A stretch of DNA of 64,000 bases from the NCBI RefSeq assembly GCF_012932565.1, contig NZ_JABBYJ010000002.1:186001-250000 (forward strand), given 5' to 3'. A program made the position numbers and the translations under genes. The notes beneath the pieces are model-generated. The model made no database searches. It worked only from the letters and a program-made list of their open reading frames with translations, and was not told where the DNA came from. Below are positions 4,276-19,612 of the stretch, piece after piece (position 1 is the stretch's first letter; every line of letters begins with the position of its first letter). Source of the DNA: Sneathiella limimaris (GTDB lineage Bacteria; Pseudomonadota; Alphaproteobacteria; Sneathiellales; Sneathiellaceae).

Positions 4276-5178
4276 CTATGGATGATCGTTAATCGCGGCC
4301 TCAGCGATGGGGTCGCCGGCGATGCGGGAATGGAGCATGACACGAGGCTCGCTGAAGTCCCATTCGCAGGCCCGATGCATTAGGCAGCGATTATCCCAGA
4401 CCAAAACATCCCCCGCCGTCCAACGGTGCTGGTAAACGCGGCGATCATCACCAACCGCAAAACTATTCAGGCTATCAATCAAGGCCTTGGATCGCTCCTC
4501 CGACAGTCCCGGAATACCAAAGGCATGACGACCCACTGCAAGGGCTTTCCGGCCCGTCTCAGGATGCGCTTTGACAAGAGGCCGCAAAGGAACATTTTCC
4601 ACATTCATTCCATAGCCTAAATATTCGCTGTTCTCGGCCTTTGTCTCCTCCCCCAGCAGGCGCTGGCTATATTCAAGGGAATGATGGGCGGACAGTTCCT
4701 CAATTTCAGTGCGCACCTCCTCATCCAACGCATCATAGGCATCGCGCATATCTGAAAAGGCGGTATCCCCCTGCTGACTTGGAACCACTTGGGCACTGAA
4801 AACCGCACCCTTGGCCTGAACCGGCATATAGGTACTGTCCTGATGCCAATGCATATTACCCCGAATGATCTTCATCATATCATCATCGGGAGCATCCCGA
4901 AGGCTGCCATCTGGCTTCACATTACTGATATGAACGGCTTTCAACTCCTCAACCAGATCGCCAAAGCGCCTGGCGAAGGCCATCTGCTCAGATTTGGAGA
5001 GAAACTGCCCTGGAAAGATGAGCAAGCCATAGTCGAGCCAGGCGGAATACAGGGCCTCAAATCTGTTCTCTTCCAGTTCTTTCAGATTGATATCCCGAAT
5101 TATCGCCCCAAAGGTTTTATCCAAGGGCTCTATCTTAAAACCAGTGTCGGAATGCAGGGTTTCTCCCATTGTTTCCAT
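4276..5178 (-). CDS. TauD/TfdA-family Fe(II)/2-oxoglutarate dioxygenase
   Basis: A 300-residue non-haem iron dioxygenase that would oxidise a small substrate while decarboxylating 2-oxoglutarate. The iron triad is visible: HWHQDSTYMP gives the H-x-D pair near residues 113-115, and the distal His lies in CLMHRA near the C-terminus. The 2-oxoglutarate-binding Arg lies in EPRVMLHSRIAGD. The family includes taurine, 2,4-D, clavaminate and carnitine-pathway enzymes; nothing here fixes the substrate. AAGGAG lies 6 bases before the ATG at 5178. It is convergent with the cupin gene and followed on the other side by a 420-bp gap. Confidence 0.85.
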   Translation of the reverse strand: METMGETLHSDTGFKIEPLDKTFGAIIRDINLKELEENRFEALYSAWLDYGLLIFPGQFLSKSEQMAFARRFGDLVEELKAVHISNVKPDGSLRDAPDDDMMKIIRGNMHWHQDSTYMPVQAKGAVFSAQVVPSQQGDTAFSDMRDAYDALDEEVRTEIEELSAHHSLEYSQRLLGEETKAENSEYLGYGMNVENVPLRPLVKAHPETGRKALAVGRHAFGIPGLSEERSKALIDSLNSFAVGDDRRVYQHRWTAGDVLVWDNRCLMHRACEWDFSEPRVMLHSRIAGDPIAEAAINDHP

Positions 5179-5600
5179 TATTTTCTCCTTTTTATTTAGT
5201 TCTTTTTTATTTCATTCTAATTTATCAGATCCTCAACTCAACATAAACACTGCAATAGTCCTGTCATTTGACAATCAGGAGCGGAACGTTAGGATGGAGA
5301 TGAATTTCAGAGCACCTGGAATTCTTGTCGATATCTTTATCGGCACCTCAAAGGGCGGTCCTCAGCCATTCTGCTAGGTTTTCAATCCCCGCGCCCATTG
5401 TCGGTTAACTGACATAAGCTGCTGGATGATTGGATTTTTAATGACATCCAAATCCCGGGCGTTTTGCCGCTCAATCATGTGGACAACTATGTTCATCCTG
5501 TCCTTCCAGCAGTCGACTGAAGCTTGCTGGATAACTGGGCAGGTGAGCTTCTTTTACAACAGATGTCCATGACGATAAATCGGAGAAGAAAGTAGCATAA
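5179..5600. other. Non-coding gap between divergent dioxygenase and methyltransferase genes
   Basis: About 420 bases. Both flanking genes point outward, so promoters for both must lie here. I see no convincing gene; short open frames lack ribosome sites and family features. No clear long palindrome was found. Confidence 0.5.
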
Positions 5601-6620
5601 ATGTCTGTAAAAATTATAGAATCCGCCGAAGAAGTCTCAAGTATCGCCTTTGGCTTCATGGCCTCGAAAGCCATGTTCGCCGGTCTGCACCTGGATATCT
5701 TTACCCATTTGGCCTCGGGCCCAAAAACCACAGAAGAATTATCCGCACTTGTTGGTGTTCCAAACAACCGGATTGTCACCCTAATGACGGCCCTTAACGG
5801 AATTGGATTGGTTGACTGGGCTGATGATAAATACAGCAACTCCCCTGGGGCGGAAGCCTTTTTATCGAGTACATCCAAATATGATTTTGGGGACTATCTG
5901 CGCTACCAAATTGATCAGCAAATGTATCCGTTCCTTGGACAGCTGAATGAGGTCTTGGACGGGTCGCTGAGCTCTGACGCTGTAGATAGCTATCAGCACT
6001 GGATGTCAGATCCGGAACAGGCTGCCCTTTACAGCAACGCCCAGCACGCAGGCTCTCTGGGTCCGGGGTTAACCATCGCGCGCACCGTCGATCTATCAGG
6101 GGCAAAAACGCTGCTGGATGTGGGTGGCGGGACAGGCGCCATGACCATTCGCTTGTTGCAGGCCAATCCGGATCTCACCTCAACGATCATAGATTTTCCA
6201 AACGTCAGTGAGATCGGTTGGCAGTTCATCACCGATGCAGAAATGACCAATCGCGTTAGATATATCCCTTCCAACGCGCTGACGGTGGAATGGCCGACAG
6301 AACAGGACGCCATTTTAATGTCCTATCTGTTCAGCGGCATTCCAGGCCATGAGGTTCCGCGGCTCGTGCGCTACGCATTTGAGTGCTTGGCGCCCGGAGG
6401 AAAAATCATGGTGCATGACTTCATGGTTGAGGATGACCGGACCGGCCCTGTCATGGCGGCGCTCTGGCAATTACAGCACATGGCCTTCACCCCGGACGCT
6501 CACTCAGTAACGGCAGGCTGGCTAAAAGCGGAAATGGAAAAGGTCGGTTTTGTAGATGTTCAGGATGAGCAGACAATTCCTGGCATGACACATCTGGTCC
6601 ACGCAAAGAAACCTAACTAA
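5601..6620 (+). CDS. SAM-dependent O-methyltransferase (Methyltransf_2 type)
   Basis: A 339-residue class I methyltransferase with an N-terminal winged-helix dimerisation domain (about residues 10-95, FMASKAMFAGLHLDIFTHLA) and a C-terminal Rossmann domain. The SAM-binding glycine loop is LLDVGGGTGAMTIRLLQA and the acidic end of beta-2 is IIDFPNV. Relatives are small-molecule O-methyltransferases of the acetylserotonin/hydroxyindole type, common in natural-product and quinone pathways. The usual catalytic His region reads KIMVHDFMVEDD. It ends 23 bases before a strong hairpin terminator, so it is probably monocistronic. Substrate unknown. Confidence 0.82.
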   Translation: MSVKIIESAEEVSSIAFGFMASKAMFAGLHLDIFTHLASGPKTTEELSALVGVPNNRIVTLMTALNGIGLVDWADDKYSNSPGAEAFLSSTSKYDFGDYLRYQIDQQMYPFLGQLNEVLDGSLSSDAVDSYQHWMSDPEQAALYSNAQHAGSLGPGLTIARTVDLSGAKTLLDVGGGTGAMTIRLLQANPDLTSTIIDFPNVSEIGWQFITDAEMTNRVRYIPSNALTVEWPTEQDAILMSYLFSGIPGHEVPRLVRYAFECLAPGGKIMVHDFMVEDDRTGPVMAALWQLQHMAFTPDAHSVTAGWLKAEMEKVGFVDVQDEQTIPGMTHLVHAKKPN

Positions 6621-6642
6621 AGCGAAAGCTAACGAAACAAGA

Positions 6643-6675
6643 AAGGCTGGCAGTAGAAATTGCCAGCCTTTTCAT
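6643..6675 (+). terminator. Rho-independent terminator of the methyltransferase gene
   Basis: Perfect 10-bp arms AAGGCTGGCA (6643-6652) and TGCCAGCCTT (6661-6670) surround an 8-base loop, followed by TTCATTTTATT. Confidence 0.85.
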
Positions 6676-6710
6676 TTTATTACAGAATTTTCTTAAATTT
6701 TCATCTTAGC

Positions 6711-7307
6711 TTAATTAAGTTTTGATGACTTAATCATGAGAAGCCAGTCTTCACCATCACCGCTCCACTCCCCTTTAATCATGGGACGGGAGGCTCGCAC
6801 CTCAAACCCGGCCCGCTCATAAAGCCGCTGAGCATTTGGATTGGCGTCTGAACAGATAAGGCTGAGCGGCTTTCCGTCGGCAAGTTCTCTCGCCAGATCA
6901 AGAAATTCTGATCCGATGCCGAGCCCCTGATATGCATCATCCGTTGCGAGGACATTGATGTAATAGCTGTTCAACGCCTGATTTTCCAATTCAATAAGGG
7001 GGACAAAAACTGACGGAATAGTTTCATCAATTTCCTCTGGCTCCCCGCCAATTTCGTAACAGATCATTCCTGCGACAACCAGTCCGTCAAGTTCAGCAAC
7101 ATGGGCGTTGCGATAGGAAGAGCTTCCAGTTTCTCCACCCGTCCGTTGGCATCCAATTGCAAAAGGATCGGCTCCTTCGGACGCAACAGTTTGCCAAAAA
7201 TAATAAGCAAGGCCATGACTTGCCAAATGCACAAACCGGGCGAGGTCTGACGCATCCGCTGGACAGGCTTTGCGAAAGGAAAGCTCCTCTTTAGGCAACG
7301 CGGACAT
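6711..7307 (-). CDS. GNAT-family N-acetyltransferase
   Basis: A 198-residue acetyl-CoA-dependent acyltransferase. It begins MSALPKEELSFRKACPADAS, the usual beta-1/alpha-1 start, and carries the acetyl-CoA pyrophosphate loop as AYQGLGIGSEFLDLA (Q/RxxGxG/A) followed by NPNAQRLYERAGFE, the C-terminal signature. The ATG at 7307 lies inside the end of the homocysteine methyltransferase frame, a 17-base overlap, with AAGGGAAG upstream. A longer open frame to 7430 merely runs through the upstream gene. The overlap suggests translational coupling with the upstream gene. The substrate is unknown. Confidence 0.82.
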   Translation of the reverse strand: MSALPKEELSFRKACPADASDLARFVHLASHGLAYYFWQTVASEGADPFAIGCQRTGGETGSSSYRNAHVAELDGLVVAGMICYEIGGEPEEIDETIPSVFVPLIELENQALNSYYINVLATDDAYQGLGIGSEFLDLARELADGKPLSLICSDANPNAQRLYERAGFEVRASRPMIKGEWSGDGEDWLLMIKSSKLN

Positions 7308-8289
7308 CGCTCTTCCCTTCCAGCTGATCTTCATGATGGTGGGAATGAACGCAAGCCCCGCCAATAGCAGCCACATGACGATGATCGGTACCGCAGCATC
7401 CCCCAAGAACGCTGAGCCCCGGAAGGACATCCATCAATTCCCGGTATTGCCCCGCAAGCGCCACCGGATCCCCGTCATCCAACTCTTCAGCGTTATCCAG
7501 CTCTTCATGGCTCATACAAGATGCGTTGGCCCGAAGCCCCTTGATACGCCCTGCCCAAGCATTTTCACCGCCGAAAATCTGCTCAAAATGTGTTGGGTGG
7601 GCGCAGTTGATCATGTAGTAAGCAGGCCCGTTGCCTGTGGCTCGATCAACTTCCAAAATCGCATCCCCCAGCGACTGACCTGTTGGCAGGCGGCCATCCG
7701 TCTCAACCGTAAAGGCGACCACGACAGGCAACTCAGCCTTTTGAGCAGCCCGGACGAAACCAACAGCCTCAGGCACGTTGGTCAGTGTAATTGCAGAAAC
7801 CAGATCGACCCCGGCTTCCTTAAAGAAACCAACCTGTTCGCTATGGTAGGCTTCAGCCACAACCTCAGTCATGATCTCCCCCGGATCATAGCCATCACCG
7901 CGCGGGCCGAGATTGCCACTGATGACAACCGGCGTCTCAATTGTTTCATATTCTTCGCGAATTTCCTTTAGAAGTGCGACAGCATCCAAGTTGATCCGAC
8001 GGATAGACTGATCATTGTGACCAAGCTTCTCCATCCAGTCTCGGCTTGCGCGCCAGGTCGCTGTTTCCAGAACAATTCCGGTTTTCAGTTGAGCCGCAAT
8101 TTCTGTGTAGCTGCGGAAGTAGTTTTTCAGGATTTCCCGCTCCGCTTCTGTTTTCAGCATTTCGCACGCCGCAAACAGGGGCAAATCAATGCCTTCGTGA
8201 AATATCATTGTGGTCTCCAACCCCCCATCGGTCAGAAAAACCTTCCCCTCAAGTTGCGGTAAATCCGCCTTCATTTGACTGTGTTTCAT
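7291..8289 (-). CDS. Homocysteine S-methyltransferase family protein
   Basis: A 332-residue zinc-dependent methyltransferase of the MmuM/betaine-homocysteine type, a TIM barrel that moves a methyl group to homocysteine to make methionine. The zinc site is visible as a Cys in INCAHPTHF and the paired cysteines in VLGGCCGTDHRH near the C-terminus. The N-terminus LTDGGLETTMIFHEG matches the family. The ATG at 8289 is chosen because GGAG lies 6 bases before it; a TTG four codons upstream overlaps that site. The methyl donor cannot be told. It forms a probable two-gene unit with the overlapping GNAT gene and diverges from a TetR regulator. Confidence 0.85.
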   Translation of the reverse strand: MKHSQMKADLPQLEGKVFLTDGGLETTMIFHEGIDLPLFAACEMLKTEAEREILKNYFRSYTEIAAQLKTGIVLETATWRASRDWMEKLGHNDQSIRRINLDAVALLKEIREEYETIETPVVISGNLGPRGDGYDPGEIMTEVVAEAYHSEQVGFFKEAGVDLVSAITLTNVPEAVGFVRAAQKAELPVVVAFTVETDGRLPTGQSLGDAILEVDRATGNGPAYYMINCAHPTHFEQIFGGENAWAGRIKGLRANASCMSHEELDNAEELDDGDPVALAGQYRELMDVLPGLSVLGGCCGTDHRHVAAIGGACVHSHHHEDQLEGKSDVRVA

Positions 8290-8372
8290 TTCGTTCTCCA
8301 AGTATTAGTACCGTGTTCAAAAGAGACCCGAAATATTCAAAAACAGGCATGCAAAAACTAGAAGCTTTGTGG

Positions 8373-8476
8373 TATAGTCAGGTGAGGGATTTTTTTACTA
8401 TACATTTCAACGACTTGAAGCTTGCGCCGAGGATGGGGGGCGATCTAGCGATCAGAAAACTGTACCTGTGGTGCAG
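8373..8476. promoter_or_regulatory. Candidate TetR operator region
   Basis: Two inverted repeats lie in the gap between the divergent methyltransferase and TetR genes: GTATAGT/ACTATAC (8373-8379 and 8397-8403) and a 17-bp imperfect palindrome CTGTACCTGTGGTGCAG (8460-8476; 6 of 7 arm positions pair), 17 bases before the TetR ATG. The second is well placed for autorepression. No experimental consensus is known to me. Confidence 0.35.
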
Positions 8477-8493
8477 TAAATGCGGAGCGTCAA

Positions 8494-9111
8494 ATGGGAA
8501 AAGGGCAACAAACCCGCGAGCGGATCATGGATATCGCGGAATCATCAATCCTCATGAAAGGCTTTGGGGCCACGTCAATTGACGAGATCATCGCAGAAGC
8601 TGAAATCACTAAAAGTGGCTTCTTTTATCACTTCAGGGATAAAAACGAATTGGCAAGGGCCCTGCTGGATCGCTATGTGGATCGGGAGGATGAGCTGCTT
8701 GATGATCTTTTCAACCGGGCAGCAGAACTGCATGATGATCCGCTCCATGCCTTTCTGATCGGGCTCAAGATGCTCTCCGAAATGATGGGAGATTTGCCGA
8801 ACGGTCATCCGGGATGCCTGGTTGCAACCATCTGCTATAATGAACGATTGTATGATCATGACATTCGGGAGAAGAACCGGGTCTCTGTCCTAAGCTGGCG
8901 GAACCGCTTCAAGGATACCCTCACCGAAATCGCCGAGATCTACCCGCCCAATGAACCTGTGGACCTGGATGACCTGGCCGATATGGTCTCCACCATCGTC
9001 GAGGGAGGCATTGTGATGTCCAAGGCCCTGCAGGAGCCGGAAGTCCTCGCCAAACAAGTGCTGCTGCTTAGATCCTACGTCAAAATGCTGTTCCTGCCGC
9101 GCAGCCATTAG
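8494..9111 (+). CDS. TetR/AcrR-family transcriptional regulator
   Basis: A 205-residue repressor-type protein. The N-terminal helix-turn-helix is clear: RERIMDIAESSILMKGFGAT, then SIDEIIAEAEITKSGFFYHF and DKNELARALL, the classic TetR pattern. The C-terminal half is an all-helical ligand-binding and dimerisation domain (residues 60-200) similar to the TetR_C subgroup with GHPGCLVATICY. GGAGCGTCAA precedes the ATG. It diverges from the homocysteine methyltransferase operon and may regulate it and itself. The ligand is unknown. Confidence 0.9.
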   Translation: MGKGQQTRERIMDIAESSILMKGFGATSIDEIIAEAEITKSGFFYHFRDKNELARALLDRYVDREDELLDDLFNRAAELHDDPLHAFLIGLKMLSEMMGDLPNGHPGCLVATICYNERLYDHDIREKNRVSVLSWRNRFKDTLTEIAEIYPPNEPVDLDDLADMVSTIVEGGIVMSKALQEPEVLAKQVLLLRSYVKMLFLPRSH

Positions 9112-9279
9112 GGCAAATGTGACCTCGATATTGCGCGGGGTTCCTTTAGACGCGCTGATCAAGCCAAAACGCCATAAAGGAACATACACTTAGACTGACA
9201 GATGGCTTTATTCTTTATTAACTGGATCACGCTAATTTGGACGCAGTATTCATATAAAGATTAGCATCGGTTAAGTTTC

Positions 9280-10338
9280 ATGTTCTTGCCTAGAAAATTG
9301 CTTCCTATAATTCTGCTTTGCCAGGCTCTTCTATTCACTGCATGCGATCAGCAAGAACAAACGGTTCATTCCTGGAAACTGCAAAGCCACGCTTCAGCTG
9401 ACAGCATTGACTATCAGGAACTTGTGAAGATGGCCGATAATATCCGGCTAATGAGCAATGGACGCCTGGATATTACCCCATACCCCTCTGGTCAAATAAT
9501 TGGTGGCGCCAACATCTTCAACGCTGTCGGTGATCGAACCATAGAAATGGGAAATGGGTGGCCTAACTGGTGGTCTGGACAGCATCCTGCCTGGGCAGTC
9601 ATGAATGCCGGTCCTTTTGATTTCATGAACCTTGATGCGTCCATGATGTTCTTCTTGGCTGGTGAAGGAACGGCCCTTGCCAATCAACTCTCAGAACCCG
9701 CCGGCATTATCTGGCGACCCGCATGGTGGCCCGGGATGGAATTTGGACTGCTGTCCAAAGACCCAATCCGGAATTTACAAGATCTGCAAGAAAAGCGGGT
9801 TCGGATCGGCCCTGGCCTTCCCAGCGAAGTCCTGGCGGAAGCATCCGGCGCCTATACCATTCCCTTGGTTCCAAGTGAAATCCGCCCCGCCTTGGAAGCT
9901 GGCAACCTTGATGCTGTTGAGTGGACCACTACAGCTGGAGCCTGGAATTTGGGGTTACAGGATGTCAGTAATCACGCCATCGTTCCAGCCATCTGGCAGC
10001 CGTCGGTGCTCGCTGACTTTCTGATCAACAAAACGGCTTATGCTGAGTTATCCGAAGACCTAAAGGCAATTCTAGAGACTGCAATTAAGAGCTACACGTT
10101 GACAACCACCCTGAAAGCCAAGGACCAGGATATTGATGCCCTGCAGCGCTTTCGGAATAGCGACACCGTATTTACCCAATGGTCAAAAGACGATCTGGCA
10201 CGATTTAGGCAAGCGTCAGACCGCATCCTCGACCGGTATAAGGAGCGAGACGAATTTTCTCGCCAACTAATTGAGAAAAAACAGGCCTTCAAAGCCAGAT
10301 ACAACAAATACTACGAAGTTTTTGGCTCTTATGAGTAA
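9280..10338 (+). CDS. TRAP-type (DctP family) solute-binding lipoprotein without a transporter
   Basis: A 352-residue periplasmic binding protein. The signal peptide ends in a lipobox LLFTAC with Cys22, so it is probably lipid-anchored. The mature part has the DctP-family fold; the segment RVRIGPGLPSEVLAEASGA followed by PSEIRPALEAGNLDAVEWTT (about residues 170-210) matches the ligand-clamping region with its conserved Arg. No DctQ or DctM membrane subunits are nearby. Instead a hybrid histidine kinase begins 42 bases downstream in the same direction. The likely job is therefore ligand presentation to the sensor kinase rather than uptake. The ligand is unknown; the family binds carboxylates and related acids. 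Confidence 0.82.
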   Translation: MFLPRKLLPIILLCQALLFTACDQQEQTVHSWKLQSHASADSIDYQELVKMADNIRLMSNGRLDITPYPSGQIIGGANIFNAVGDRTIEMGNGWPNWWSGQHPAWAVMNAGPFDFMNLDASMMFFLAGEGTALANQLSEPAGIIWRPAWWPGMEFGLLSKDPIRNLQDLQEKRVRIGPGLPSEVLAEASGAYTIPLVPSEIRPALEAGNLDAVEWTTTAGAWNLGLQDVSNHAIVPAIWQPSVLADFLINKTAYAELSEDLKAILETAIKSYTLTTTLKAKDQDIDALQRFRNSDTVFTQWSKDDLARFRQASDRILDRYKERDEFSRQLIEKKQAFKARYNKYYEVFGSYE

Positions 10339-10380
10339 GCGTATTTCCAGTCACCGTGTTGAGGGCATGTTCGAAATCAT

Positions 10381-12507
10381 ATGAAGAATGATCTCACCGT
10401 TAAGCTTGTTATGTTACTGACCGTCATCACGATCACGGTGATGGCAGTCTTTATCGGCCTTCGGCTTTGGATGAACTGGTACGAGTACAATAAAGAGATC
10501 GACGCCAAATTCCTAACCGTTAGTTCGCGCATTGCCAATACGGTGAACCCGACAATCTGGGAGATCTACCAAAAATCGCATGACCGCAAATATTCCCGAG
10601 AAGTTGCTCACGCAATTCTGGATGCCGAATTGAAAGACCCTCATCTGGTAGGTATCAAAGTTTACGGCAATTTCGGCCATCTCTTTATGGGTAAGATTAA
10701 AAAGCCAGATGGAAGTACTGTTGATTTCAGTGACGAACTCTATCGGGAAATTTCACCATCAATCGACAGGCACCAGCTCTATCCGATCAAACTAGATCAG
10801 ATGACCATTGGTAATGTGGAGCTGTTCTTCACAGAAGCTCCCTTGCGAGGCAAACTGCTGGAGAGCTTCCTGATCGATCTGGCGCAAACATTTACGATCG
10901 GCCTGGCAACAGTCCTCTTCCTCTTTTATGCCCTGAGGAAATCACTGGTCAAACCTCTTGTTGACCTGCAAACCGCAAAACAGGCGGTGGACAGTATGTC
11001 AGATGGCGTTGCCATTCTGTCACCCGATGGACAGATCCTGGAAGTCAACAACTCTTTCATCAAGCAAACCGGGTATGGCATTGAAGATGTGCTTCATGAA
11101 AAGCTGTTCATGTTTGAGCGCAACTCAGAAGAAACGCCAGAACTTTCAGAAATCTGGGAGATCGTAGAGCTAAAAGGGGTTTGGACTGGAGAGGTTGAAA
11201 CAACGCGCAAAGATGGCTCCCACTACCCTGCAAAGCTGTCCTTTACCTCTGTGCGAAAGGAAAGTGGTGAGGTGGCGAATAGAGTTGTTGTCATCCATGA
11301 CAACACGAACGAACACAGACTGCAACATTCCCAAAGAATGGAGACAGTTGGGGCTCTGGCAGGCGGCATTGCCCATGATATTAATAACGTTCTTACCCCG
11401 ATAATGGGTTGGGCAGAGCTGCTCAGCGAAGATCTATCTGATAAAGAGACCACCCACCGCGGCTTGACCCATATCCTGAAGGGTACAGAACGCGCGAAAA
11501 GCATGATCGACCAGATCATGAACTTTTCACGGATGAATACAAGCTCTGAACCCTATCAAGTCGACCTGAAACAACTGATCCTGGACTCCATCGGCTTTAT
11601 CCGGGCGACCTTCCCCTCCTCCATCCAGATTGAAACCGAATTGTCGGACCAAGACCTTTTTGTTTATGGGGATCCCGGGAAAATTGAGCAGGTTCTGATT
11701 AATTTATATACCAACGCCATGCATGCCATGGAAGAGCGAGGTGTTCTTACAATCAAGGCAGAGCTGTTAGACTCAAAGCGTCCCGGCTCTTCGGCGGCAA
11801 AGATGGTCCACATTTCTGTCTCCGATACAGGCCATGGGATCCCTGCTGATGTCCTGGACAAAATATTCGAGCCTTATTTCACAACGAAAGGATCTGGCAA
11901 AGGCAACGGCTTTGGCCTGTCCACTTCGATAGGGATCATCAACAAACTGGAAGGTGAGCTTAAAGTCGACACCCAAGTCGGTGTTGGATCGACATTTCAT
12001 ATTTGGCTCCCTTCTATCACAGCAAATCCGACAACAGCAGAAGACATCAGGTTGGACAAGACTTCGGCCGCTGCAAGGTTGCCCGTTGCCAATGACGCCG
12101 GCCTTTTTCAGGGTTTGAGGGTCCTACTCGTCGACGATGAAATTGAAAACCTGAAGCTTGGGGAAAACATGCTTGGCCGCCTTGGTTGCCATACGGACAT
12201 GTTCAGTGATAGCCAGCAAGCTTTGACCACGTTCAAATCCAACCCGGAAAATTATGACCTCTTGATCACGGATCAAAGTATGCCCCAGTTGCAGGGACAT
12301 GAGCTCTGTTTGGCGGTTCGCGAGATCACTCCCGAATTACCAATTATCGTCATTACCGGGCAGGACTTGTCCACCATTCACGATAAATACGGAACACTGG
12401 ACCAGATAACCAGCCTTCGAAAACCCTTTCGAGCCCAGCAACTCAAAGCCGCCATAACAAAACTGCTTGGCACCTACGAAAGAGAAAAAGTCACGGCAAA
12501 CCGATAA
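10381..12507 (+). CDS. Membrane hybrid sensor histidine kinase (PAS-HisKA-HATPase-REC)
   Basis: A 708-residue inner-membrane sensor. TM1 is at residues 8-30, an extracytoplasmic domain follows, and TM2 is at about 161-185. Then come a PAS domain (about 200-320, DSMSDGVAILSPDGQILEVN), HisKA with phospho-acceptor His332 in AGGIAHDINNVLTPI, and HATPase_c (N box EQVLINLYTNAMHAM, G box DTGHGIP, GNGFGLSTS). The C-terminal receiver domain has Asp631 in LLITDQSMPQ and the acidic pair VDDE. The architecture belongs to the group with a nitrogen-regulator-like H box (HDINN). With no separate response regulator nearby, the output partner lies elsewhere. It probably works with the binding protein encoded just upstream. 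Confidence 0.9.
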   Translation: MKNDLTVKLVMLLTVITITVMAVFIGLRLWMNWYEYNKEIDAKFLTVSSRIANTVNPTIWEIYQKSHDRKYSREVAHAILDAELKDPHLVGIKVYGNFGHLFMGKIKKPDGSTVDFSDELYREISPSIDRHQLYPIKLDQMTIGNVELFFTEAPLRGKLLESFLIDLAQTFTIGLATVLFLFYALRKSLVKPLVDLQTAKQAVDSMSDGVAILSPDGQILEVNNSFIKQTGYGIEDVLHEKLFMFERNSEETPELSEIWEIVELKGVWTGEVETTRKDGSHYPAKLSFTSVRKESGEVANRVVVIHDNTNEHRLQHSQRMETVGALAGGIAHDINNVLTPIMGWAELLSEDLSDKETTHRGLTHILKGTERAKSMIDQIMNFSRMNTSSEPYQVDLKQLILDSIGFIRATFPSSIQIETELSDQDLFVYGDPGKIEQVLINLYTNAMHAMEERGVLTIKAELLDSKRPGSSAAKMVHISVSDTGHGIPADVLDKIFEPYFTTKGSGKGNGFGLSTSIGIINKLEGELKVDTQVGVGSTFHIWLPSITANPTTAEDIRLDKTSAAARLPVANDAGLFQGLRVLLVDDEIENLKLGENMLGRLGCHTDMFSDSQQALTTFKSNPENYDLLITDQSMPQLQGHELCLAVREITPELPIIVITGQDLSTIHDKYGTLDQITSLRKPFRAQQLKAAITKLLGTYEREKVTANR

Positions 12508-12578
12508 ATGCCTTGGGGGCAGCCTTACCTTGGCCTCCCTTAATTTCCAGATCAAAACCTCATGGATAGGTCGGAACA

Positions 12579-12662
12579 ATTAGTGAGACCCTCGCGACCA
12601 AAACCGGCCGCACCGTAAGCATTGCACCCATGATGGACTGGACGGCTTATAGAATTAAATAG
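12579..12662 (+). pseudogene. dusA: Relic 5' end of dusA (copy 1, ancestral border)
   Basis: In-frame translation gives TKTGRTVSIAPMMDWT and then leaves the family sequence and stops (AYRIK, TAG at 12660-12662). TVSIAPMMDWT is the conserved N-terminus of DusA. In the frame, ATT stands at 12579 where a start codon would be expected, so the start is probably lost. The core CCCATGATGGACTGGACGG (12627-12645) is shared with copies 2 and 3, while the bases before it differ from them. I read this as the original chromosomal 5' end left behind when an element inserted. Confidence 0.85.
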
Positions 12663-12687
12663 TTGTTTTAATTAACATTTATTTTTC

Positions 12688-12736
12688 TTGGTACTGATTT
12701 GGTACCGCACAAAATACTCTAAAGCAATTTGGTACC
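12688..12736 (+). repeat. Arm-type direct repeats at the left end of island A
   Basis: Three copies of (T)TTGGTAC(C): 12688-12694, 12698-12706 and 12728-12736. TGGTAC units are spaced 11 and 30 bases apart, and the first lies 44 bases from the end of the dusA core. The same spacings recur at the left end of island B (15276-15323), which argues for binding sites of one recombinase family. Confidence 0.65.
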
Positions 12737-13152
12737 ACTGCGAAAGGAAAAGGCAACCGATATCCCTGTCCGACCTGGAAATTCGCCCGAACGTTCTCGT
12801 TTAGCTGATTTCTGACAGCACCAACCACATCCAGTTTCTGCCTAATGATCAACAGGGCGGTGGCAAGAGTCGCCGCAAATGATATTTCGAAAAGCTCCTT
12901 GGGTATCGACAACACTAAACTTCAGAAAATACGAACGCAATGGTGATCGCTACCAGTCTGCGGCTCACTCTCACTAAATCGTACCGGCTTTCTGGGCATT
13001 ACAAAGCAAACTGTACGCCCCTTCTTGATACCAGTAAATATTTGCTACAAGTCTAACCAGGAGATCACAGTAACAAAGATAGTTCCCTACATGACGGCGG
13101 CGAAGAGGGTTTCTTGGATAACACCGAATTCGCAAAAATATTCCGATTGAAA
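12737..13152. other. Left part of island A without a clear gene
   Basis: About 415 bases. A minus-strand open frame (12679-12915) and several short plus-strand frames exist, but none shows a ribosome site, domain or family I recognise. A plus-strand stretch around 13076-13165 reads plausibly as protein but has no start. It may be gene debris. Confidence 0.4.
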
Positions 13153-14049
13153 CTAGAAAATATGTTGTTTGAAATCACCGAGAACCAAGGGGTCTGCACA
13201 AGGTCGAGTGAGCAAGTCCTCGGCAATGCAGGCGTCACTTCGAGCGCTGTCAACCTCGTCCGTCCATACCTTCATCGAGGTTAAACGGTAATCGCCGAAG
13301 GCAGTTATCATTGCCACATCTGCCGCATCCCGACCATGTACCATTAGTATACGGCCAACCCGCGGTATATTGTGGCGCGGATCAAAAACATACCATTTGT
13401 TGTCCAAAAATACTTCGGCCCAGGCACAAAAATCTCCCGCACCTTCCACCTTGGCACCGATATCACTCAGATACCCGCTGGCATACCGGGCGGGTAAATT
13501 CATCGCTCGGCAAAGCGCAATAAACAAATGCGCAAAATCTCGGCAGACGCCAGTTCCTTCGCGAAAGACATCCACGGCCGTTTTTGTCGGACGACCGAAC
13601 CGATATCCAAAGACAACATTATTGTGTACCCAGTTTGAAATTGCCTGCGCTCGCTCCCAACCTGGTGGCGTGTTACCAAATAGTTCCCACGCTTTCACAA
13701 TGAGTTCATCGCTTTCACAGTATCTACTGGCCGTCAGGTAATACAGTAACTCGCTCGGCAGATCCCTTATCTCGTGTTGGTGCGCATTCCAGTTGAAAGG
13801 GTCAGGTTCTCCACTATCTTCCATCACACAGTCCGACCACAGGATTGTCGAACCCGCCGGCGCTTCAATGCGGGCACAACGGTTTCCAAAAACATCTGAA
13901 TAGTTTTCAATTACCAATTCCGGCTCAACCCGTATACGGTCAGTACCGAAAACCGGCGGCCTGACGGAAGGGTGCGGATATAGAGCCAACAGCATCGGTG
14001 TCTGCACCGGGCATTCAATGGTCATTTCAAATCCAATACGGATGAGCAT
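13153..14049 (-). CDS. Transglutaminase-like protein
   Basis: A 298-residue member of the bacterial transglutaminase/papain-like superfamily, in the subfamily beginning LIRIGFEMTIECPVQTPMLL. The core (about residues 130-230) has the nucleophile Cys169 in EGTGVCRDFAHLFIALCRAM and the Asp in KWYVFDPRHNIPR (Asp223). At the position where classical transglutaminases have His there is Cys208 (GDFCAWAEVF); relatives in this subfamily vary there, so activity is uncertain. A Shine-Dalgarno-like GGAATTAAGG abuts the ATG. It is the only intact-looking gene in island A. Substrate unknown; relatives are proposed peptidases or amidases. Confidence 0.82.
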   Translation of the reverse strand: MLIRIGFEMTIECPVQTPMLLALYPHPSVRPPVFGTDRIRVEPELVIENYSDVFGNRCARIEAPAGSTILWSDCVMEDSGEPDPFNWNAHQHEIRDLPSELLYYLTASRYCESDELIVKAWELFGNTPPGWERAQAISNWVHNNVVFGYRFGRPTKTAVDVFREGTGVCRDFAHLFIALCRAMNLPARYASGYLSDIGAKVEGAGDFCAWAEVFLDNKWYVFDPRHNIPRVGRILMVHGRDAADVAMITAFGDYRLTSMKVWTDEVDSARSDACIAEDLLTRPCADPLVLGDFKQHIF

Positions 14050-14589
14050 CCTTAATTCCTTTTACTTTCAACGTGAAGACACAAACTTTACAGATCCCTG
14101 TGGCCAGCATGAGCCAAAAATCTGACAACTGGACCGTCTCATCCACAATCAAACGGGAGTTCAACTTGAGACCTGCCGCGCCCGTGCTAAGATGATTGAA
14201 CGAACGGTTCGGAGTCTCGAAGACGTTATCTATCGCCGCTTCGTGGGCCTTGATCTGAGGTCTGGGGATCACGTCGTGTCGAGCGAAACGATGCAACAGC
14301 AGCAACATAACCGACACGGTCTTGTCCGCTCCAATCTGAGTGATGACAGGATCATCGAAATTTTCCAAATGATATTCTTTCGTTGGCCAGTACCGGAACA
14401 CACTTTTTGCAAAAGTTGCCGGATGGCCTTCTTTGGGAAACCTGCACAGATCTACTGCCGTTTCACATATTGGCAAATCAGGCTTTCTGGCAAGATCAGT
14501 ATGACTTATCGCCAGAAACTTTGTCGTTATTGATATTTCTACCTTCTACGATCAAAGAGACAGGGTACACGTTCCCGCTAGAATAGCAA
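14050..14589. other. Middle of island A, no recognisable gene
   Basis: About 540 bases between the transglutaminase start and the PocR remnant. Open frames exist on both strands (for example 14027-14476 minus, 14192-14533 plus), but they overlap each other and carry no family motif I know. Probably degraded coding sequence. Confidence 0.4.
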
Positions 14590-14945
14590 TGAATATTATA
14601 AAAGCGGCCATTGGTCAGAAAACTGTCTGTTCCGACGTTGCGATCAAGAAGCCGGTTTTTACATCCGTAAAGGTTGTAGCTGTGCCCCTCTTCAACAGCA
14701 TTCGCTAAGGCTGTGTCGCTTTCTAGGCAATTGGCACATGTTTGTTATTTTTACGATGAAACTGAGTAAATGCATCCACCAATTGGTTGCAATCAGGACC
14801 GTCCCATCAAGATCCAAAAGTGCTGTTACCATGCCGGTCGCATCAGAATATTTTTTGAGAAGTTGCGACAACTGTTCAAGGTCAATGAGCTCAGAGATAG
14901 AAACTTCAGACCGTGTATCCTCAACACCGACAACACTTTTCGACG
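14590..14945 (-). pseudogene. Frameshifted PocR-type ligand-sensing domain remnant
   Basis: Reading the minus strand through two single-base frame changes (near 14770 and 14740) gives a continuous PocR-like domain. The pieces are SISELIDLEQLSQLLKKYSD, ATGMVTALLDLDGTVLIATNW, then DAFTQFHRKNN, then TCANCLESDTALANAVEEG and YNLYGCKN. The cysteine pattern C-x2-C...ESD and the FHR motif are typical of PocR sensory domains, usually found at the N-terminus of histidine kinases, diguanylate cyclases or AraC regulators. No output domain follows, and there are stops in every single frame. The reading is my own alignment from memory. Confidence 0.55.
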
Positions 14946-15180
14946 TATGCAGTACTCACTTGATACCAATTTCCCAAGTGGAATTCATGTTTGGAAAACC
15001 ATGTATTATGTTAGCAAAGTATACGCATGTTTAGTTAATGGATTTTTAATGTTAGACAACGCAAAAAAGAACCCGGTTGTCAGATCTCAATTAAATAGTT
15101 CTAAAAAATGAGGAAGATTTTTACTTTTGTTTTTTGCCCAAAAACTTATATCTAAAATGTTGTTTTCATACGAGGCTTAA

Positions 15181-15258
15181 GTGACCAAACTCGATCGAAA
15201 AATTTGTACGGCGCCCATGATGGACTGGACGGATTTCAGGTATAATAAATTGAAGTAA
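15181..15258 (+). pseudogene. dusA: Truncated dusA 5' end (copy 2, island A/B junction)
   Basis: GTG at 15181 starts [18 protein letters not shown], identical in protein to the start of intact dusA (18644), then diverges to FRYNKLK and stops at 15256-15258. Over the first 54 bases only three differ from copy 3 (all within codons 2-4). GAGGC precedes both starts, so the upstream leader is shared too. This is the replacement 5' end brought by island A, later cut off from the gene body by island B. Confidence 0.88.
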
Positions 15259-15275
15259 TTGTTATTTTTATTTTC

Positions 15276-15323
15276 TGGTACTGATTTGGTACCATATGAT
15301 TCTGCATCAGAAGTTTTGGTACT
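15276..15323 (+). repeat. Arm-type direct repeats at the left end of island B
   Basis: TGGTAC at 15276-15281, TTTGGTACC at 15285-15293 and TTTTGGTACT at 15314-15323. Spacings (11 and 30 bases) and the distance from the dusA core (44 bases) equal those at the left end of island A. Confidence 0.65.
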
Positions 15324-15398
15324 GACGAGCTCTCAGCTCCCAGTTCTTTACAACTAAACTATCAAAAAATCCTCCACCTTGATCGGAACTGGACATAA

Positions 15399-16238
15399 TT
15401 AATCTCCTATCAGCGATAATAACACTTGCTCTTCCAGAACGGGGATCATTCTAAATAAGACTTCCGACTTAATTTTATTTGCCCTATAAAACATCCAAAA
15501 GGAAGCAGAGGATTTTAACCCCCAAAAGCATTCTTCTTTAAGGTCATCACAAACCTCCCACCGCACTAAATTACTGTTTTCATAGTACAAAAAAAGTTTA
15601 ACGCTATCTTTAGCGTATGCTTTATTCACCTGATACGAAGTATCTCCCAATTCACCAATACTGTAGTTCACTGAATCTTGAATTACCTTCTGATAGAAAT
15701 CTCTTTCAGACTGGTCCGGGTTCCTGATCTCCAGAGACTTCAATTCGGAGAACATATACCGTAAGATATTCATCAGCATTGCCTCAAAGCGCTCAACACA
15801 GACTCCACGAGAACAAAAACTTGGCATAGACGAACTAACAACTTTGAGTAGAAGCAATTTATCACTCAAAATTCGGGAAGCATCTACAGCCTTGCTTGTG
15901 AAACTTTTAGTTGTCCCATGGCTTCCAAACGCGAGAGGAGATATCCATACCTCACCCAATGGGCCGTCCGCTTCATAGCGACCTGGGAACACCACAAAGC
16001 TCCGTTTAATTCTGAACATCACTCCATTTACTTTTGCATTTAGAAAACCCGGATCGACATCATCATATCCAGGACACCTCTGAAGCGGTTTATCCTCACC
16101 GCTGTACAAAGAAGAGAAATTTTCCAGATAACTTCGACGCTTATCCCCTTTTAAATCGCAATCAACAGCAATAGAAAAATTTGTAAAAAGAAAAAACCCA
16201 ATTACAGAGAGGCTCAACCTGAAAGCTAATTTGTTCAT
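15399..16238 (-). CDS. Secreted hypothetical protein
   Basis: 279 residues with an N-terminal Sec signal peptide (MNKLAFRLSLSVIGFFLFTN to about residue 24, cleavage near SIA-V). The mature part is mixed alpha/beta with several Cys (DCDLKGDK, CPGYDD, CSRGVCVERF, CDDLKEEC), consistent with a periplasmic disulfide-bonded protein. I recognise no family. The ATG is 1 base after the stop of the 46-residue frame, and GGAG lies 7 bases upstream, inside that frame's last codons, so translation is probably coupled. It is cargo of island B. Confidence 0.6.
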   Translation of the reverse strand: MNKLAFRLSLSVIGFFLFTNFSIAVDCDLKGDKRRSYLENFSSLYSGEDKPLQRCPGYDDVDPGFLNAKVNGVMFRIKRSFVVFPGRYEADGPLGEVWISPLAFGSHGTTKSFTSKAVDASRILSDKLLLLKVVSSSMPSFCSRGVCVERFEAMLMNILRYMFSELKSLEIRNPDQSERDFYQKVIQDSVNYSIGELGDTSYQVNKAYAKDSVKLFLYYENSNLVRWEVCDDLKEECFWGLKSSASFWMFYRANKIKSEVLFRMIPVLEEQVLLSLIGD

Positions 16239-16239
16239 C

Positions 16240-16312
16240 TCACCACTCCACGACGGCCATGCCCTTGCCGTTGGGACGGACTGCGGGTTTTGACTTTTTT
16301 CCTTTGAAGACT
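16240..16312 (-). repeat. Repeated gene-tail sequence, copy 1
   Basis: About 70 bases whose minus strand encodes VFKGKKSKPAVRPNGKG and MAVVEW followed by TGA, closely matching 17096-17172. Each copy is followed within a few bases by the start of a different, unrelated gene. Confidence 0.65.
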
Positions 16313-16380
16313 TTTTCTTTCAGTTCCTGCGCAGTTTTCGGTAAATGGCTAGCGACAGATCCCACAACTTTATCGAACAT
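16240..16380 (-). CDS. Small 46-residue protein ending in the repeated tail
   Basis: Begins MFDKVVGSVASHLPKTAQEL and ends KPAVRPNGKGMAVVEW. GGGTGG lies about 7 bases before the ATG. The last 20 or so codons match a frameshifted copy at 17096-17172, so the sequence may be the surviving C-terminal tail of a larger protein rather than a free-standing peptide. Its stop overlaps the ribosome site of the secreted protein gene that follows. No family recognised. A longer frame to 16428 exists but lacks a better start. Confidence 0.45.
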   Translation of the reverse strand: MFDKVVGSVASHLPKTAQELKEKVFKGKKSKPAVRPNGKGMAVVEW

Positions 16381-16519
16381 ATTTGTCCACCCGTATGAAT
16401 TCAGAGGAAAATGGGCCTGATACAGCATAATCTGCTGCAGATATCAATGGACGCAAGTACTCAGCAGGTAACGGCTTATAAAAAGAATATCTTCGTTGAG
16501 TTAAAAATCTAACTAAATA

Positions 16520-17092
16520 TTATTCATTCCCCCCGTCCGCTTTACCATACCTAAGAAAACAGCAGATCAGTACGACACTTGACACAACAAACAAAGAATA
16601 AAAAATAAAATAATACAAATATTTAAAATTATAAATCAAACCACTAACCCAAACATCAGCACCGAAAAGCACTAAATACAAAGAAAAAAGCAAAAAAGGA
16701 ATAATATTTGGAACATAGGAAAGAGATTTATCCTTAATATGCACTCCAATTTTTAAAAAAAGCATAGAAATTACATATAAAAATATGAAAAACACAACAA
16801 AAAGATAAGAAACAATGGCGAGCTTAAATATGGAGTTTTCAGCCAAGTCATTCACCTGTGAACTCTCGCTGAAAATGTAATTGTGTAAATTAAATAATAC
16901 TTCAGATGGCACAATAAAGAAAAAGAGATAATGAACGTAAACAAATTCAAACTCAGCCCCAAGCTGCGCATTACCTAATAAGTAAACATTGAACCAAATC
17001 GAAAAAAATAAAAAGTATACCAACTCATCTGATCTATTAACGTATAGGGAATACGCCATCGCCAATATTAAGAAAACTAGTACGTACTTCAC
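16520..17092 (-). CDS. AT-rich integral membrane protein of unknown function
   Basis: 190 residues, dominated by hydrophobic segments; about six membrane spans can be drawn (residues 2-17, 25-45, 52-70, 85-112, 125-150 and 155-182). Charged residues are few and the tail is GKADGGNE. The DNA is much richer in A+T than the neighbouring chromosome, which suggests recent transfer with the island. The start follows repeated-tail copy 2 directly. I recognise no family; an immunity-type membrane protein is one possibility but is not shown by the sequence. Confidence 0.6.
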   Translation of the reverse strand: MKYVLVFLILAMAYSLYVNRSDELVYFLFFSIWFNVYLLGNAQLGAEFEFVYVHYLFFFIVPSEVLFNLHNYIFSESSQVNDLAENSIFKLAIVSYLFVVFFIFLYVISMLFLKIGVHIKDKSLSYVPNIIPFLLFSLYLVLFGADVWVSGLIYNFKYLYYFIFYSLFVVSSVVLICCFLRYGKADGGNE

Positions 17093-17095
17093 TTC

Positions 17096-17172
17096 ACCTC
17101 ACCACTCCACGACCGCCATGCCCTATGCCATTAGGAGCTGGCTTGAGGATTTTAACTTTTTGGCCTTTCGAG
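17096..17172 (-). repeat. Repeated gene-tail sequence, copy 2 (frameshifted)
   Basis: Minus strand reads KGKVSKGQKVKILKPAPNGIG; one extra G in a GGG run then breaks the frame before MAVVEW and TGA. It matches the tail at 16240-16312 and lies between the Sel1 gene stop (17196) and the membrane protein start (17092). Confidence 0.6.
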
Positions 17173-17195
17173 ACTTTTCCCTTTTATACACTTTG

Positions 17196-18194
17196 CTAGC
17201 AACCCTTGTATTTGTTCTTTCGACACTGTTCGGCCATAGCTCGTGCCTGAGCTTTTTGATCGGCCGTCATGACCGGATCCAGAATTTTCAGAACCTTTCC
17301 TTTCTGTCCTTTCTGAACAGCCAGGATCGTCCACATGTAGGCCCGAAGATTATCGCGAGAAGTTCCTTTTGCCAGAAGATACATAAATCCCAGATTATAC
17401 TGCGCTTTCGCTAGGCCCTGTTCTGCGGACAGCTTCAGCCACTTGAACGCCTCACCAGGATCTTTTTCAAAGCCGAGACCTTCTGCATACCACACCGCGA
17501 GATAATACTGCCCGCTTGGATCACCATTAACTGCGGATTTCTTGAACCATTTACCAGCCTCCAACAGGTCTTCTGGGACCCCTTTGCCCCCCGAATACAT
17601 CCCTCCAAGATGATTGAAGGCATCAATATTATTCTGCTCGGCGGCCAGATGAAACCATTTCAGGGCCTCCTCAAAATTCTGGGGAACACCGACCCCGCCA
17701 ATCTCGTACAACTGACCCAGTCTCACCTGAGCCTCGGCCCGTCCTTGATCCGCCGCCAAACGGTACCACTTGATTGCTTCTTTGAGATCAGGCTTAAGGC
17801 CAATGTTATTATTAAACCAATTCGCAGGAGCTCCAGTGAGGTACAAGTTTCCCAAATTTAACTGCGAAGTCACGTCTCCTTGTTCAGCTGCAGACTTCCA
17901 CCACTTGATACCTTCGTTGTAATCAGCCTTTCCGCCCCTATGCATACCTGAAACGTATAAGCCGCCTAAATAACTTTGGGCTCGAACATCACCCTTTTCA
18001 GCAGCCTCAAGGAATTCCTTAAACGCCAATTGAAAATTGAAATTTTTATACGCCTTATACCCCTTCTCATAATCTGCTAGTGAGATGTCAGATGAAATCA
18101 TAAGGGATACCAAAACAAACCCAAACAAACTGATCTGTTTAACCTTCAACTCTGCAAGGCTGGCCAATTTCCGAATACTCAAACATACTCGCAT
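17196..18194 (-). CDS. Exported Sel1-repeat protein (island cargo)
   Basis: 332 residues with an N-terminal hydrophobic signal or anchor (LFGFVLVSLMISSDISLADY, cleavage after LA). About seven Sel1-like repeats follow, each of the form A...G-x-A-x-A-Q-x2-L-G-x2-Y-x-G, for example AEKGDVRAQSYLGGLYVSG and AEQGDVTSQLNLGNLYLTG. Sel1 repeats are alpha-alpha superhelices that mediate protein contacts, often in envelope stress or host interaction. GGAG lies 7 bases before the ATG at 18194. The C-terminus QCRKNKYKGC is typical of bacterial family members. It is the first gene of the island B minus-strand block. Confidence 0.85.
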   Translation of the reverse strand: MRVCLSIRKLASLAELKVKQISLFGFVLVSLMISSDISLADYEKGYKAYKNFNFQLAFKEFLEAAEKGDVRAQSYLGGLYVSGMHRGGKADYNEGIKWWKSAAEQGDVTSQLNLGNLYLTGAPANWFNNNIGLKPDLKEAIKWYRLAADQGRAEAQVRLGQLYEIGGVGVPQNFEEALKWFHLAAEQNNIDAFNHLGGMYSGGKGVPEDLLEAGKWFKKSAVNGDPSGQYYLAVWYAEGLGFEKDPGEAFKWLKLSAEQGLAKAQYNLGFMYLLAKGTSRDNLRAYMWTILAVQKGQKGKVLKILDPVMTADQKAQARAMAEQCRKNKYKGC

Positions 18195-18643
18195 TCAACA
18201 TCTCCAAGAGCACTGTTCGTATGTACAGGTTTTTATCTTTACGCTTTATCCTAAATAAAGCTTCTAAGCATCCGTCACACAAATGAATTCAAGCGCATTG
18301 CTCTCCATCAGTCTCATCACGCTCAAGTAACAATCTACATGCACTGAGGATAGATCACAGTAAATCACTCGTGATAGAATTTACTGCTTTATATAATATA
18401 TCTTAAAGTCAATTTCTATTAATTGTAGAAATTAAAATAAACATAGGAAGTTGATCAACAAAGTGATGGGTATTAGGGAAGGCTTTGAGAGATCATATTG
18501 ATCATCACTGCAGAATGGTTGGCTTTTAATCGATTTGTGTATTGTTACCCACCTGACATAGAGCACTGATCTAAATTCAATTTCCTTTTGGTTTTCTATT
18601 CAAAAAGTAATATCTAGCTGATAGTTATTTTTTTGAGGCTCTA
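18195..18643. other. Right end of island B and dusA leader
   Basis: About 450 AT-rich bases between the divergent Sel1 and dusA genes. No gene is seen. It must hold the promoter that now drives dusA, supplied by the island. The last dozen bases (GAGGCTCTAGTGAC) resemble the leader of copy 2 (GAGGCTTAAGTGAC). No TGGTAC arm repeats were found here. Confidence 0.5.
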
Positions 18644-19612
18644 GTGACTAAATTAGATCGAAAAATTTGTACGGCGCCCATGATGGACTGGACGGATAAG
18701 CATGACAGGTATTTCCTGCGGCTGATTTCCTCCAAGGCGTTGCTCTATACGGAAATGGTGACGACCGGCGCAATCCTGTTTGGGGATGAGGCGCGCCATC
18801 TGGATTTTGATCCAGCGGAGCAGCCGGTAGCCTTGCAACTGGGTGGCAGTGATCCTGAGGCCCTGGCCAAATGCGCGAAAATTGCTACCGGTTACGGCTA
18901 TCGGGAGATCAACCTGAATGTGGGTTGCCCGTCCGACCGGGTGCAGAACGGCAAGTTCGGTGCCTGCCTGATGGCAGAACCGGAACTGGTTGCCGATTGC
19001 GTCGCCGCCATGAAGGAAGCGACCCCCCTACCCGTCACCGTGAAAAACCGCATCGGCATCGATGATCTGGATAGTTACGATCATCTCGTAAAATTTACGG
19101 ACATTATCCGCGCCAAGGGATGCGAGACCTTTATCATTCATGCCCGCAAAGCCTGGCTCACCGGCTTGAGCCCTAAGGAAAACCGGACCATTCCGCCACT
19201 TGACTATCCGCGGGTCTATCAGCTGAAGAGAGACTTCCCGGATCTTGAGATTATCATAAACGGCGGCATCCAAACGCTGGAAGAGATAGATGAACATCTC
19301 ACCCATGTGGATGGTGTCATGATCGGGCGGGAAGCCTACCAGAACCCCTACTTTCTGGCGGCGATTGACCAGCGTTACTATGGGGTCTCAGACGAAGCGC
19401 CAGACCGCAAAGAAGTTGTCGAGCAGATCATTCCTTATATCGAGCAGGAAATGGCCAAAGGCGTTCCGCTTAAATCCATCAGCCGTCATATGCTGGGCCT
19501 GTTTCAGGGGCGCCCCGGCGCGAGAGCCTGGCGGCGGCATATCTCCGAAAATGCCCATCTGGATGGGGCTGAACCGTCTTTGTTGACGGAAGCTGCCTCC
19601 AAGGTTCGCTAA
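18644..19612 (+). CDS. dusA: tRNA-dihydrouridine synthase A (5' end supplied by an integrated element)
   Basis: Flavoenzyme that reduces specific uridines in the tRNA D-loop to dihydrouridine (DusA acts at U20/U20a). 322 residues, a TIM barrel with FMN. Family marks: [16 protein letters not shown] at the start, [20 protein letters not shown] with catalytic Cys95, [19 protein letters not shown], and IINGGI...[12 protein letters not shown] at the phosphate site. The start is GTG at 18644 with GAGG upstream. The first codons up to the core at 18677-18695 come from the element, as shown by the two upstream relic copies. A hairpin terminator follows. Confidence 0.95.

Follow-up and report, generated by a model that had tools for sequence, protein, structure and literature searches.

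The 5′ end of the tRNA-modifying gene dusA occurs in three copies in the 64-kb stretch of the Sneathiella limimaris genome analyzed here (the window; C2:186001-250000 of a 3.66-Mb genome in 3 contigs), and the DNA between these copies constitutes two tandem genomic islands, A and B, each of which carries a replacement dusA 5′ end and neither of which yielded an integrase. This arrangement is seen in the sequence as it had been put forward in a preliminary description of the window; the array is, however, no isolated case, since double arrays with related ends are present in other Sneathiella genomes. On the grounds of the comparisons given below, we consider it rather probable that the islands are non-autonomous, cis-mobilizable-like cassettes whose integration would depend on a trans-acting tyrosine recombinase with specificity for dusA; it is probably a recombinase supplied from outside that moves them. 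Islands in dusA and integrase-less tandem islands were known before; new here is a recurrent family of integrase-free cassettes at dusA.

The 19-bp core CCCATGATGGACTGGACGG is present in exact form at 12627-12645, 15214-15232 and 18677-18695 (all forward strand), i.e. at the left boundary of island A, at the right boundary of A that is also the left boundary of B, and at the right boundary of B. With up to three mismatches allowed, the window contained three matches versus a mean of 0.01 in shuffled sequences (0 of 100 shuffles reached three), which places the common core beyond chance; a degenerate core pattern retrieved these three sites only from the whole genome. The core encodes PMMDWT, and insertion has thus affected the dusA 5′ end at a conserved attachment sequence; the crossover itself would lie somewhere inside the core. 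Despite the insertions, dusA (18644..19612, forward strand; 322 aa; Pfam Dus PF01207, 3.5e-92) is open and stays in frame with its new 5′ end, the N-terminal codons being supplied by island B. Copy 2 of the 5′ exon (15181..15234, forward strand) is identical to copy 3, the present dusA start, at 51 of 54 positions; the three differences are all synonymous, with the same 18-aa translation as result. Copy 1 (12584..12645, forward strand), which translates as (GCG)TKTGRTVSIAPMMDWTA and in which GCG (12594-12596) occupies the start codon position, is 79-81% identical to the dusA 5′ ends of the Sneathiella genomes G017 and G003 over 62-63 nt. The N-terminus reads VSIAP in copy 1 and ICTAP in copy 2 and the present dusA; [IV]S[IV]AP was found in 18 of 18 relatives with a dusA start read, a set that includes the cassette carriers G011 and G008. 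Because of this native-type sequence in copy 1 as opposed to ICTAP in the other two, copy 1 is, as far as the sequence can tell, the displaced old chromosomal end, and copies 2 and 3 arrived with the islands. The three copies with their shared core, the near-identity of copies 2 and 3 and the origin of copy 1 had already been recognized in the preliminary description; its history of two islands that each brought one copy is supported, but the sequence is compatible with both orders of insertion, as either order yields an identical array.

The similarity between copies 1 and 2 extends beyond the core and into the islands (83 nt at 76% identity; 111 nt at 70% in another comparison), and this left-end module is a feature that had been overlooked so far. 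Left end A (12646..12755, forward strand) contains TTGGTAC at 12688, 12699 and 12729, left end B (15233..15339, forward strand) at 15286 and 15316; counted from the core start, the motif is found at +72 and +102 in both islands, and additionally at +61 in A. Likewise, TTTGGTAC is positioned at +71 and +101 in both islands, which accounts for 4 of its 5 copies in the 64 kb. Ungapped comparison of left ends A, B and the middle left end of G011 gave 42-49 identities in 70 positions versus approximately 26 (standard deviation 3.2-3.5) for random A+T-rich stretches; that 4-11 of 3000 null draws were at or above the observed values is due to the true ends held in the null pool. From their place and spacing, we read these repeats as putative arm-type recombinase sites. 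In phage BcepMigl, listed among the homologues of dusA-type integrases (DAI) (PMC4482086), the repeats TTTGCTAC / GTAGCAAA flank a dusA-type core beside the integrase gene (L091:2128-2535) and resemble the cassette TTTGGTAC sites in form, as judged by eye; the same phage carries ATGATGGACTGGACCG beside its integrase gene.

Two models of the left end, R1 (trained on four left ends) and R2 (trained on nine), were run over 24 Sneathiella genomes. R1 retrieved five further left ends (E 4.7e-17, 3.8e-12, 1.2e-4, 1.9e-4 and 1.0e-3) and R2 a tenth (2.3e-6); nine of the ten are R2 training sequences, among them left ends A and B (98.6 and 91.1 bits), and five of these nine were first found by R1, which had been trained on the other four. 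The ten left ends are distributed over 4 of the 24 genomes (window genome, two; G011, three; G008, two; G005, three), where matching ends enclose different cargo. Eight cassettes are complete from core to core (1.6-8.3 kb): six are located at dusA (2,587 and 3,463 bp in the window, 6,436 and 3,222 bp in G011, 1,602 and 2,137 bp in G008), one is displaced (G011, 6,878 bp) and one lies on a contig of G005 (8,321 bp), the site of the latter being presumed because this contig holds no dusA. As in the window, dusA follows the last core in G011 and G008. The cargo comprises transglutaminase and Sel1 proteins in the window and TRAP transporter and AMP-binding proteins in G011. A PrsW-like protein is encoded in G008, MFS and FMN-dehydrogenase proteins are encoded in G005, and the displaced G011 cassette carries genes for multicopper oxidase, SCO1-like and DsbD-like proteins. 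Of 55 pairs formed from 11 left junctions, each taken with 700 nt to either side of the core, 30 matched at E<=0.01, and the pairwise similarity was confined to positions -111 to +197 of the core with the exception of one 15-mer. The displaced G011 cassette (multicopper oxidase/DUF411/SCO1-like/DsbD-like; L124:9936-16959, G011:C1:131935-138958) is distant from dusA and is delimited by two dusA-type left ends; DDE_Tnp_IS240 transposases are found at some distance on both sides, and its transport by a transposon is therefore conceivable.

Beyond these ten, many of the weaker R1 and R2 matches correspond to the core of dusA itself; further weak R2 matches were obtained at G022:C1:3652881 (9.8e-4) and G023:C61:13336 (1.3e-3). 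Two candidates were rejected: an R1 match in G006:C6 (E 2.5e-3) is false and lies within a coding gene, and a match near a 689-aa gene of G015 (E 0.008) is no better than the best reversed-sequence control (6.4e-4). A profile of the core plus 12 upstream bases revealed no further relics, this profile having missed the degenerate middle copies found by R1 and inspection. In a survey of the class under stricter filters, R2 matched 2 of 289 genomes at E<=1e-5, both of them Sneathiella. The core pattern matched 89 of 385 genomes, with two matches on one contig in the window genome only; this latter survey is little informative because the pattern ended in GA like dusA and would consequently miss most displaced copies. 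Exact left-end patterns gave no match in the genome_contigs collection and two in viral_contigs, both situated inside open reading frames (one phage-like) with no core nearby and regarded as chance. The pattern of core plus ATTTGGTAC gave none in viral_contigs and two in genome_contigs, of which one, in a contig of a Sneathiella metagenome-assembled genome (MAG), is the same sequence as G005:C39; the other, in a Polaribacter MAG contig, was discarded as it lies within a coding frame. The back-translated Sneathiella-type dusA start was without match in viral_contigs.

According to the mechanism that we propose, integration would divide the attachment module into a left end of approximately 80-110 bp with the putative arm sites, to which the recombinase may bind, and a right end consisting of the dusA 5′ region and N-terminal exon; the unrelated cargo would come to lie between the two. 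Provided in trans, a tyrosine recombinase specific for dusA would link the presumed circular form of the cassette with the core located in codons 12-17 of dusA, so that dusA would be cut and yet be given a replacement 5′ end, in frame. The new core could serve as target for the next cassette, and arrays would grow by repeated integration.

No integrase was detected in the cassettes by any of the searches applied. The window cargo proteins tested against Pfam comprised neither an integrase nor a transfer gene; likewise, no PrtN match was obtained for the cargo proteins submitted to Pfam, i.e. for all but the shortest open reading frames. Seven cassette regions were negative both with a profile of 31 tyrosine recombinases and with a DAI query (best E 0.44 and 0.93, respectively), and the profile recovered 5 of 5 control genes (L098 and L100 being training genes, L097, L099 and L102 independent ones at 1.9e-27 or better). 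The whole cassette loci contained no integrase at E<=0.1, and neither an integrase nor a fragment of one was detected in the 8 complete cassettes. Scanning of 19 dusA loci (most with approximately 15-17 kb upstream, four with 1-9 kb) gave one weak integrase-profile match, E 0.043, in G015 (L040:15164-15370), approximately 1.6 kb upstream of dusA. In the window's own genome, PF13356 had 0 matches and PF00589 had 7, all on contig C1.

The absence of integrase genes could alternatively result from decay, i.e. the cassettes would be former complete dusA islands whose integrase was deleted after integration, with the shared left end as remnant of one autonomous family. This main rival explanation is a possible but clearly less than even prospect. 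Decay is the described origin of cis-mobilizable elements (CIMEs) (PMC5704250), in autonomous dusA islands the integrase gene adjoins dusA (PMC4482086), degeneracy is seen in some cores and in one start codon, and the part of island A between 14050 and 15180 is without recognizable gene. However, partial integrase genes would be expected in such remnants and none was found in the eight complete cassettes; the similarity between cassettes ends at similar distances from the core and not at scattered deletion points; and homologous integrase-free modules occupy different array positions in G011 and G023. An exchange of the region upstream of dusA by homologous recombination or transformation, with the conserved 5′ region as anchor and no site-specific enzyme, would agree with the wide variation of the genes upstream of dusA in the genus and with right ends that are ordinary dusA 5′ regions, but it is improbable as it explains neither why the cassettes have a non-coding left end with fixed arm offsets in common on their cargo side nor why all junctions of the window array possess the core in exact form. 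Slippage or unequal crossing-over that duplicated the dusA start in tandem, which the direct repeats of one segment might suggest, is hardly credible, for the DNA between the repeats is wholly different except for its ends and copy 1 encodes another N-terminus than copies 2 and 3.

Several observations weigh against cassettes moved by a recombinase in trans. No tyrosine recombinase was found in the 64-kb window, and the search for a dusA-specific recombinase elsewhere in the genome, as suggested in the preliminary description, gave no match to the one dusA-integrase query used (E<=0.001). In the genus, the dusA-integrase query produced weak matches in 9 of 24 genomes (25-32% identity, one short piece 48%), and no arm-site cluster was seen in the 36 or more integrase loci scanned. 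The right-end block, which matches dusA 5′ regions from about -100 on, is not cassette-specific because it represents the ordinary dusA start region of the genus and is shared by relatives without detected cassettes. The outer G011 cassette possesses an intact core, and its left end is weakly similar to the others (1.2e-5), mostly by the core. The dusA of G008 (L048:1991-2954) is recovered as three overlapping matches, a pattern that would fit a frameshift from mutation or from an error of assembly, and may thus not be intact. The reordered modules of G011 and G023 speak for movable cassettes, with reservations. Upstream of dusA, both genomes share a TRAP/CoA-ligase/TetR module (6.05 kb, 84%) and a three-gene module (2.3 kb, 73%), the two modules being arranged in opposite order; in G011, they are separated by a degenerate core and an unambiguous left end. 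In the corresponding gap of G023, the left-end match is weak (E 0.0069 when 17 kb were searched, 0.1 in a wider search) and comparable to a chance coding match in L128 that reached 0.0037, and the outer edge of the G023 array yielded no relic. In consequence, the module swap fits independent cassettes but falls short of proof, and another rearrangement may have produced it.

The DAI islands and prophages compiled by Farrugia et al. 2015 are the closest known counterparts in terms of target. The cassettes resemble them in insertion at the dusA 5′ end, in semi-conserved direct repeats and in the 5′ end supplied by the island (PMC4482086); a new 5′ end restoring dusA has been demonstrated for a Vibrio element (PMC8409611). 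In contrast, an integrase was present in all 94 DAI islands, a prtN/rdfN-like gene in 60 of the 94, and their size is typically 30-60 kb with a minimum of 4,758 bp, whereas the window islands are integrase-free and 2.6 and 3.5 kb long; the main text of that paper mentions no tandem array, the word "tandem" occurring 0 times (PMC4482086). With CIMEs the cassettes have in common that attachment sites are kept, integration and transfer genes are absent and the elements lie in tandem at one gene; CIMEs are, however, described as decayed integrative and conjugative or integrative mobilizable elements (PMC5704250), whereas no ancestral remnant was seen in the cassettes, the systematic search being for integrase remnants, and their attachment modules are alike in four genomes. 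The ssrA islands of Dehalococcoides likewise form an array at one essential gene with short direct repeats in between, and 15 of them are without and 16 with an integration module (PMC3146451). They differ from the Sneathiella cassettes by a serine recombinase, by the 3′ end of an RNA gene as target and by the presence of integrase-bearing islands (PMC3146451), none with an integrase having been found in the genus Sneathiella. Tandem arrays of a site-specific genomic island are also known from SGI1, but there they consist of copies of one integrative mobilizable element (PMC2297512) and the Sneathiella cassettes differ from one another. Contrary to an integron cassette array, no adjacent integron integrase was found in the window. 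Literature searches on dusA with tandem or cis-mobilizable islands and on Sneathiella with genomic islands listed no paper that reports integrase-free dusA arrays in its title or abstract. As the earlier catalogue of dusA islands was compiled by way of their integrase genes, elements lacking such a gene were invisible to it.

If small integrase-free cassettes build dusA arrays, a part of the gene flow at this hotspot has been overlooked so far, and the left-end model provides a means of finding such cassettes. The array further offers an opportunity to test how a protein-coding gene can withstand one insertion after another, the exon that is cut off being replaced each time by that of the insert. 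Tentatively, dusA might even act as an integron-like anchor on a coding gene for recombinase-free cassettes that have a compact attachment module in common, with arm sites at fixed offsets, and carry spare dusA starts; a recombinase gene at another place would then bring about their collection, their reordering and their passage from one species to another. We regard this extension as speculative and rather doubtful at present.

As to the region upstream of the array, the empty site predicted in the preliminary description, i.e. the kinase of the window followed directly by dusA, was not found among the relatives. In G018, a distant kinase (32% identity) is located 204 bp upstream of dusA. Five better-matching relatives (G017, G003, G015, G021 and G001) have genes of window positions 4276-6620 near dusA. 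Window positions 6620-12584, which comprise TetR, DctP-like and kinase genes and show no core at the left edge, are without counterpart there; the kinase stretch may for this reason be a further, older insertion.

Island A (cargo and ends, 12646..15213; G+C 45.6%) encodes a transglutaminase-like protein of 298 aa (13153..14049, reverse strand; Pfam PF01841, 4e-23), whose relatives in 250 plasmid records are below 60% identity. Its right end, the 5′ region of the dusA copy (15119..15213, forward strand), is 80% identical to the region upstream of dusA over 117 nt including the core. Island B (15233..18676) has a G+C content of 40.0% compared with 55.0% in dusA; according to pairwise similarity, its right end is the present dusA 5′ region (18581..18676, forward strand). 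A promoter in this right-end block can only be presumed, because the promoter scan (13 sites versus 11.8 expected) placed none directly before copies 2 or 3. Positions 12400-18800 had no Rfam match. The island B cargo, all on the reverse strand, consists of a 279-aa protein (15399..16238) without Pfam, PHROG or PADLOC match at E<=0.001, a 190-aa protein (16520..17092) that was assigned to no family in searches of Pfam, PHROG and PADLOC, and a Sel1-repeat protein of 332 aa (17196..18194; Pfam PF08238, 5.8e-44). The 279-aa protein is present in 1 of the 24 genus genomes, the window's own, and has no plasmid relatives. Island B also contains a 32-nt repeat (94% identity) at 16234-16265 and 17093-17124; it covers the end of a small open reading frame (16240-16428) and a further, apparently broken copy.

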